Shown here in pieces: positions 353 through 19,051 of a DNA stretch of 33,498 nt; positions within the stretch are counted from its first letter, which is position 1, and each line of letters starts with the position of its first letter. The notes beneath the pieces are model-generated. The model saw nothing but the letters and a program-made list of their open reading frames with translations. It was not told the origin of the DNA and made no database searches. The translations under genes and the position numbers were made by a program. The stretch is from Gammaproteobacteria bacterium (lineage in GTDB: Bacteria; Pseudomonadota; Gammaproteobacteria; GCA-001735895), in assembly GCA_029862125.1 (NCBI GenBank), contig JAOTXY010000033.1, forward strand, positions 1 through 33,498, read 5' to 3'.

Positions 353-372
353 ATGTAGGATCGATCCTACAT
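353..372. promoter_or_regulatory. 20-bp perfect palindrome resembling a GacA/UvrY response-regulator box
   Basis: The sequence ATGTAGGATCGATCCTACAT is a perfect inverted repeat. Its core TGTAGG-N6-CCTACA differs by one symmetrical base per half-site from the GacA upstream activating sequence TGTAAG-N6-CTTACA known in front of rsmX/Y/Z genes. It starts three bases after the stop of the permease and lies about 75 bp (centre to start) upstream of a TATAAT box. With no T-run after it, it is unlikely to be a Rho-independent terminator. The identification as a GacA-type operator is inference. Confidence 0.5.
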
Positions 373-436
373 AAACGGTTGCCCGGGATTACAAATCAAG
401 TCGCCTTACGGCGTAGGGCCAGGATCTCCGAAACTC

Positions 437-442
437 TATAAT
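437..442 (+). promoter_or_regulatory. -10 promoter element (TATAAT) for the candidate sRNA
   Basis: A consensus TATAAT lies at 437-442. No good TTGACA-like box is found 16-18 bp upstream, as is usual for activator-dependent promoters. Transcription would start near base 449. The palindrome at 353-372 would be centred about 86 bp upstream of that start, somewhat further than in Pseudomonas rsmY/rsmZ. Confidence 0.4.
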
Positions 443-448
443 TCAAGA

Positions 449-591
449 CGTGCCGGTATGGATTCAGGCAAAGGAGATGTTAATAAATATTTTTATTGCA
501 TCAAAGGCAGGAAGCCTTGCAGGAAGCCGTTGGATCAAGTATGCAGGTAATCTTTGGGTCCTCGCACCTTAACCGGTCGAGGACCTTTTTT
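449..591 (+). ncRNA. Candidate CsrB/RsmY-like regulatory sRNA (CsrA/RsmA-sequestering)
   Basis: Between the TATAAT box and the intrinsic terminator lie ~140 nt with six GGA motifs (460, 473, 510, 522, 532, 581), against about two expected by chance. One is displayed in a perfect hairpin, AAGGC-AGGAA-GCCTT at 504-518, the classic CsrA/RsmA target (AGGA in the loop). A second CAGGAAG copy follows at 520-526. The first GGA lies in the loop of TGCC/GGCA (451-454/467-470). An AU-rich hairpin AATAAA/TTTATT spans 482-496. Size, GGA density, upstream GacA-like box and 3' terminator all fit RsmX/Y/Z-type RNAs that titrate CsrA. Alternatives: a leader or attenuator of holA, or the mRNA of a 30-codon reading frame at 458-550. 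The 5' end is uncertain. Confidence 0.5.
557..591 (+). terminator. Rho-independent terminator
   Basis: An 8-bp perfect stem GGTCCTCG (557-564) / CGAGGACC (578-585) with a 13-nt loop is followed at once by six T (586-591). It ends the candidate sRNA about 50 bp before holA, so holA probably depends on read-through or its own weak promoter. Confidence 0.85.
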
Positions 592-18872: not shown

Positions 18873-19051
18873 CAACCGATAAAGTTCCCCGTGACGTAAA
18901 GACTGGGTGCCGAAAAAGTATTAATTTTGAAGGGTCAGGCGGCATGGATGCCGCCTGTGGCGAGTCGAGACATGGATGTCGAGTCTCGCCTTGCCCTTTA
19001 AAATTAATACTTTTTCGGCACCCAGTCAGTCGCGGGGGACTTTATCGGTTG
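18873..19051. repeat. Nested inverted repeat B (179 bp, ~58-bp composite stem with two apical hairpins)
   Basis: Outer arms 18873-18895 / 19029-19051 pair over 23 positions (two G-T). After a 5-nt/1-nt bulge, inner arms 18901-18935 / 18993-19027 pair over 35 positions, the first 28 perfectly and the rest with two G-T. The apex carries two hairpins, 18936-18957 (CAGGCGGCA/TGCCGCCTG) and 18959-18990 (GGCGAG/CTCGCC outer stem, GACAT/ATGTC inner), both with CATGGATG at the tip. All wobbles are G-U when read as plus-strand RNA, which suggests an RNA structure in the MFS 3' region. No ORF and no transposase are present. Confidence 0.85.

Follow-up and report, generated by a model that had tools for sequence, protein, structure and literature searches.

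The window (the whole stretch of 33,498 nucleotides analyzed, contig JAOTXY010000033.1 of a Gammaproteobacteria bacterium) carries, close to its start, the end of a permease gene (Pfam FtsX, 36.8 bits versus 25.5) followed by a short, putatively non-coding unit and then by holA. The original prediction described a TATAAT box, a perfect hairpin, a second AGGAA copy, and a terminator with six T at its end, all of which are found in the sequence. The features of the locus are as follows:

354..371, either strand: GacA/UvrY-box-like palindrome TGTAGGATCGATCCTACA (arms TGTAGG and CCTACA around ATCGAT), putative upstream activating sequence, from the sequence
437..442, + strand: -10 box TATAAT, from the sequence
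448..590, + strand: putative Gac/Rsm-type CsrA-antagonist sRNA gene of ~143 nt, from matches to covariance model R1, covariation, and a fold z-score of -3.5
452..469, + strand: hairpin 1, GCC 452-454 paired with GGC 467-469, loop GGA 460-462, from the alignment
473..475, + strand: unpaired GGA immediately 5' of hairpin 2, kept in 21 of 22 aligned sequences
476..502, + strand: hairpin 2, GATGT 476-480 paired with GCATC 498-502, from the consensus structure
504..518, + strand: hairpin 3, AAGGC-AGGAA-GCCTT, with a CsrA-site-like loop GGA 510-512, from the alignment
519..527, + strand: hairpin 4, GC-AGGAA-GC, loop GGA 522-524, from the alignment
530..546, + strand: weak 3-pair helix 5, 530-532 with 544-546, around GGA 532-534, from the consensus structure
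543..555, + strand: strongly conserved linker GCAGGTAATCTTT 5' of the terminator, from the alignment of 22 loci
557..591, + strand: intrinsic terminator with an 8-bp stem (GGTCCTCG 557-564, CGAGGACC 578-585) and six T (586-591), from the sequence

The 5' end of the RNA (~448) is placed from the -10 box, with five bases between 437-442 and 448. Judged by eye, no -35 element resembling TTGACA is seen upstream of this box; a TAGGG block lies ~24 nt 5' of it in 10 of the 21 rows printed, and all 22 aligned loci have, at the equivalent position, a hexamer that departs from TATAAT, TATACT, or TACAAT by no more than one base. As expected for the Gac/Rsm-type class, the RNA appears to be non-coding and to have a promoter and an intrinsic terminator of its own. 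The list of open reading frames also lets the holA frame extend 5' as far as a TTG at 496 and includes a frame on the minus strand at 501-905; homology to HolA in the relatives begins no earlier than the residue of ATG 643, the HolA query used for the relatives having itself started at that codon.

Conserved secondary structure and GGA motifs

The inferred transcript (448-590) contains the GGA-rich stretch noted in the original prediction, with six GGA starting at 460, 473, 510, 522, 532, and 581, the last of them inside the terminator stem. In 5,000 dinucleotide shuffles of the window copy, the mean number of GGA is 2.8 (P = 0.013), so the enrichment in this single copy is only moderately unusual. 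Folding, which the prediction had proposed for 440-591, was done on positions 448-595 and yields a structure more stable than any of 200 shuffles (z = -3.5). The GGA count and the fold of one sequence alone are suggestive but short of convincing.

Relatives were collected by a BLASTN search with positions 350-660, which gave matches in 22 of 57 genomes, the source genome included; one of these (in G053), a match of 21 bases outside the family, was dropped. The resulting alignment (A1) holds 22 loci from 21 genomes, two of the loci being from G011, with 5' ends set from the -10 box. Over these loci, the GGA total is 153, as compared with a shuffle mean of 86 and a maximum of 105 in 300 shuffle sets. 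The RNAalifold consensus for A1, from which the covariance model R1 was built, comprises 30 pairs in six helices, and 93.8% of its cells pair. The minimum-energy fold of the single window sequence, in which the 5' end pairs at long range with the linker, was set aside: the alignment consensus prefers local hairpins.

The consensus pairs covary. Double-sided changes are seen in 70 cells of A1, as against 25 on average in the shuffles and no more than 21 after displacing the pairing partners by one, two, or three columns, and they affect 14 of the 30 pairs, a number reached by 4 of 500 shuffles, which do not preserve the relatedness of the sequences; a weaker measure, further standard pair types, is reached by 29 of 500 such shuffles. 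In a larger alignment (A2, 32 rows), 24 of the 30 pairs have double-sided changes, a count to be read with the proviso that A2 includes distant genera and two chance-like places (L061 and L062) and, being fitted to the model, leans towards it. Individual helices differ in how much they vary. Double-sided changes are found in all four consensus pairs of hairpin 1 and in 8 of the 11 pairs of the terminator helix (A1), while hairpin 2 is paired in 96.4% of cells with little covariation (one of five pairs in A1). The stem of hairpin 3 is likewise kept, with double-sided changes in one of five pairs in A1 and four of five in A2, and both pairs of hairpin 4 are invariant in A1.

Against this background, the five GGA columns upstream of the terminator stem are kept in 20, 21, 20, 21, and 17 of the 22 sequences, respectively. 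Three of them sit in loops (hairpins 1, 3, and 4), one is unpaired, and one touches helix 5, with its first G in the closing pair; conserved GGA motifs in loops and unpaired stretches are what is expected of a Gac/Rsm-type RNA.

The same alignment bears on whether the unit is instead a small-protein gene that has a promoter and terminator of its own, such as one for the 30-residue ORF at 458-550. In favor of such a reading, ORFs of 27-40 residues do occur in the window copy as well as in the two relatives closest to it. Across the 22 aligned loci, however, starts are lost, stops and indels break up the frames, an ORF of at least 15 residues (from ATG, GTG, or TTG) is lacking in four sequences, and conservation tracks base pairs rather than a reading frame. 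With no frame conserved over the 22 loci, we reject a protein-coding function, which we consider extremely improbable. The original prediction, too, had seen no convincing protein, and the three ORFs of the window copy (30, 31, and 40 residues) are not kept in relatives; its proposed comparison of related genomes comes out in favor of an RNA: the hairpins and GGA motifs persist, stems change in a compensatory manner, and no protein frame is conserved.

A GacA-type box and the circuit genes

The strongest clue is the palindrome at 354-371, which lies within the coordinates of the original prediction but went unmentioned there. It fits the pattern TGTARGN6CYTACA; the Gac box is given as TGTAAGN6CTTACA in two published studies (PMC11837529; PMC3171408). 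If up to two mismatches are allowed, chance would give 1.68 matches in the window, where a single match, the exact one, is found, so the pattern in the window alone is not proof. Its conservation is more telling: a box with at most one mismatch is present upstream of the RNA in 27 of 29 relatives' loci (exact in 22), starting 92-95 nt before the RNA in 26 of them and 71 nt before it in one. The two misses are L045, which is cut by a contig end 75 nt upstream, and L055. The latter (in G014, ~1360-1630) retains the RNA and its GGA motifs with no GacA box within 200 nt upstream, and is a possible natural case of rewired control. Over 41 genomes the box pattern occurs 76 times, versus 10 times for a reversed control, and in the source genome it occurs twice (reversed control, once), each time preceding a putative sRNA. 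A conserved GacA/UvrY-type box at a fixed spacing upstream, as is characteristic of the Gac/Rsm-type class, ties the RNA to the Gac/Rsm circuit.

Twenty further box sites from the 41-genome scan were inspected with a crude test for a -10 box and GGA motifs downstream. Four of them (L217, L220, L223, and L227) lead into a second RNA described below, as confirmed by its covariance model (R2), and three of these hold seven or eight GGA. By the same crude test, no sRNA is evident downstream of the other 16 (L210-L216, L218, L219, L221, L222, L224-L226, L228, and L229); L222 passes the test, but at a different spacing. Such box-like palindromes could be other GacA targets or chance occurrences.

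The spacing data also speak to the possibility that the hairpins and terminator form a cis-acting leader or attenuator that controls read-through into holA. The last T of the run is at 591 and holA starts at 643, a distance of 51 nt, and holA lies downstream in 25 of the 29 relatives' loci for which flanking sequence was examined, both of which would suit a leader; the permease end is found upstream in 28 of the 29. Yet the gap between RNA and holA ranges from 40 to ~500 nt (where the match starts at the first HolA residue), as against the fixed spacing of box, promoter, and RNA, and the consensus structure, as far as the consensus pairs go, has no pairing alternative to the terminator. No holA is found in the flanks of L008, L047, L053, and L039; the first three are near contig ends, whereas L039 is not and has no holA within 1,500 nt downstream of the RNA. 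The fixed box-RNA spacing together with the variable gap to holA indicates that box, promoter, RNA, and terminator form a unit conserved as a whole, independently of holA. Given the lack of constant linkage or spacing to holA, we reject the leader as highly improbable and favor a free-standing sRNA gene.

Judged by its protein sequences, the genome appears to encode the protein components of the circuit, namely CsrA, GacA, and GacS. CsrA (66 residues) scores 114.3 bits against an NCBIfam cut-off of 73, and its gene adjoins an aspartate kinase gene. One gene away from uvrC is the gene for a GacA/UvrY-like regulator that shares 50% identity with E. coli UvrY; its best NCBIfam model is UvrY/SirA/GacA (272.6 bits, below the cut-off of 280). 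A hybrid kinase of 908 residues shares 36% identity with E. coli BarA over residues 6-522 and has BarA as its best, full-length model (553 bits, below the cut-off of 890). The calls for gacA and the kinase gene hence rest on best match, with neighborhood added for gacA, and not on the cut-offs. Additional CsrA-domain places are seen at C138:5589-5726 and C52:55289-55442, the match in the latter being in two adjacent pieces.

Distribution in relatives and a second putative Gac sRNA

Searches with R1 find the RNA in 29 of the 41 genomes of the family, the source genome included, at 30 places and in three of three genera; the two places in G011 both lie at contig ends and could represent a single locus. 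R1 has no match in the other 12 family genomes, several of which are 94%-100% complete (G035, 100%; G003 and G020, 97%), which implies that loss or strong divergence of the RNA occurs. The family also includes the Olavius algarvensis Gamma 3 endosymbiont. A search at the level of the order covers the same 41 genomes and adds nothing further. Among 369 genomes of the class, R1 matches two members of the source genus and, weakly, two other places (L061, 22.9 bits; L062, 21 bits), which by eye resemble the ends of coding sequences plus a terminator, have no GacA box in front, and were judged to be chance matches. In this class search, eight candidates were scored per genome under stricter filters, so absence of the RNA elsewhere in the class is not proved.

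A scan of a sequence collection with GGCAGGANGCCTNGCNGGANGC returned 91 stretches. A GacA-type box (at most two mismatches, at most 330 nt upstream) is present at 15 of them and absent from 76, three of which have less than 160 nt of upstream sequence. Of the 15 boxed loci, the 12 with listed titles (all but L143, L144, and L152) comprise 11 from Gammaproteobacteria MAGs and one from the Olavius algarvensis Gamma 3 endosymbiont. Several of the 15 are places already found by the genome searches, and the scan therefore serves as a control, by way of its 76 box-less loci, rather than as new evidence.

The second occurrence of the box in the source genome, at C124:30190-30207, is followed by TATACT, AGGGA motifs, and a terminator, and this stretch (C124:30190-30434; L026 1501-1745; L163 1605-1744) is a second putative Gac-controlled sRNA, with three GGA in the source genome. 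BLASTN finds it in 14 of the 41 genomes and R2 in 24, four of the latter matches being weak (24.8-30.6 bits); weak matches counted, R1 and R2 both match in 19 of the 41. An alignment of 11 copies (A3) was made from the 14 BLASTN loci, leaving out L168, L169, and L171, which do carry the box and the core of the second RNA. In all 11 copies the distance from the start of the GacA-type box to the -10 box is 87 or 88 nt, and CTCTCCTCGAG is invariant, a possible base-pairing seed.

Relation to known RNAs and proposed function

No model of Rfam 15 (4227 models) matches positions 448-590 at gathering level, as the original prediction had anticipated in supposing that existing covariance models would miss the RNA. 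The best relevant sub-threshold match is to RsmY (RF00195) at 496-586, with 15.7 bits versus a gathering score of 57, and no Csr/Rsm family is found at E ≤ 5 in 13 loci of the RNA (the window's own and those of 12 relatives) or in four loci of the second RNA. The sole gathering match in the window is to TwoAYGGAY (RF01731), at 18892-19036 on the + strand (66.7 bits versus a threshold of 43). TwoAYGGAY shares Rfam clan CL00106 with RsmY but is a long double hairpin with two ATGGAT loops, and its model has no match at 448-590. The place at 18892-19036 looks like a repeat element. It comes with inverted repeats (18901-18941/18987-19027, 18873-18895/19029-19051, and 18729-18755/18831-18857), and the inner part of a large inverted repeat adjoining it carries ATCCATGG.

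The Pseudomonas RNAs RsmY, RsmX, and RsmZ are comparable in size (121 positions in the Rfam RsmY model, versus ~143 nt here) and have GGA motifs in hairpin loops and linkers and an intrinsic terminator, likewise found here. They differ in sequence, the present RNA not being recognizable by the RsmY model, and in location, their genes lying elsewhere in Pseudomonas, whereas the RNA described here is in a permease/holA neighborhood. A GacA box upstream is a further shared feature (PMC11837529), with the difference that the box here is mostly TGTAGGN6CCTACA rather than TGTAAGN6CTTACA. With CsrB and CsrC of enterobacteria and Shewanella, the likeness is in circuit logic, that of a BarA/UvrY-activated CsrA antagonist, and a UvrY box is reported upstream of Shewanella csrB1 and csrB2 (PMC3171408). 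CsrB and CsrC have far more GGA, 22 and 14 in E. coli (PMC11882849), versus six in 143 nt here, and Shewanella csrB1 and csrB2 are ~420 nt long (PMC3171408). Pf1-Pf3 of Pseudoalteromonas fuliginea, likened here by description only, are also Csr RNAs of a non-model lineage with several per genome, detected through their GGA motifs, promoter, and terminator, but they have 9-25 GGA each and were tested by experiment (PMC11882849).

Csr sRNAs usually lack sequence conservation and are found via GGA motifs, promoters, and terminators, according to PMC11882849; on this ground, and in view of the missing Rfam match, the RNA is filed under a sequence family of its own. The sRNAs that machine learning has predicted to regulate RsmA are from other species (PMC5568370), and among the literature matches listed (titles, abstract starts, and open-licence texts) there is no sRNA at holA and no Gac sRNA of this lineage. 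The RNA represents a new, lineage-restricted sequence family that would act like RsmX/Y/Z and CsrB/C, and neither a named Rfam family nor a new mechanism.

Taken together, covariation, the kept GGA motifs, the GacA-type box, and the circuit genes support the earlier idea of a CsrA-antagonist sRNA, and we consider it very probable (roughly 0.88) that 354-591 is a stand-alone sRNA gene of the Gac/Rsm (BarA/UvrY-Csr) circuit that sponges CsrA. In this circuit, the sensor kinase would phosphorylate GacA, which would bind the palindrome at 354-371 and activate the promoter at 437-442; an RNA of ~143 nt would be made, ending at the intrinsic terminator, and CsrA dimers would bind it at five GGA sites, of which three are in the loops of short hairpins, so that CsrA is drawn off its mRNA targets. 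Transcription of the RNA, GacA binding, CsrA binding, titration, and Gac dependence are all steps that we infer from sequence comparison.

The linker, in which GCAGGT is invariant in all 22 loci and AATCT is kept in at least 90%, may have an added role. Its near-invariance 5' of the terminator (GCAGGTAATCT), perhaps beyond what a CsrA site alone needs, would fit a GacA-activated sRNA that acts mainly by pairing with mRNAs and binds CsrA little or not at all. The preservation of five GGA positions, three of them in hairpin loops, in 17-21 of 22 loci goes against this, and the linker, which has an AGG of its own, may simply offer CsrA one more contact; we regard mRNA pairing as the main function as very unlikely. 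Somewhat less improbable, but still doubtful, is a combination in which the two unrelated-looking Gac sRNAs, with near-invariant non-GGA cores (GCAGGUAAUCU in the RNA at 448-590 and CUCUCCUCGAG in the second), would each sponge CsrA and also regulate mRNAs by base pairing; if so, titration would be coupled with direct targeting of specific mRNAs.

If the sponge reading is right, a Gac/Rsm sRNA family that falls below Rfam thresholds is recognizable in an uncultured gammaproteobacterial family by a GacA-type box at fixed spacing, covariation, and conservation of GGA in loops. The covariance model, together with this simple rule, would offer a way to find sponge RNAs in lineages that have CsrA and GacA and no annotated sRNA.
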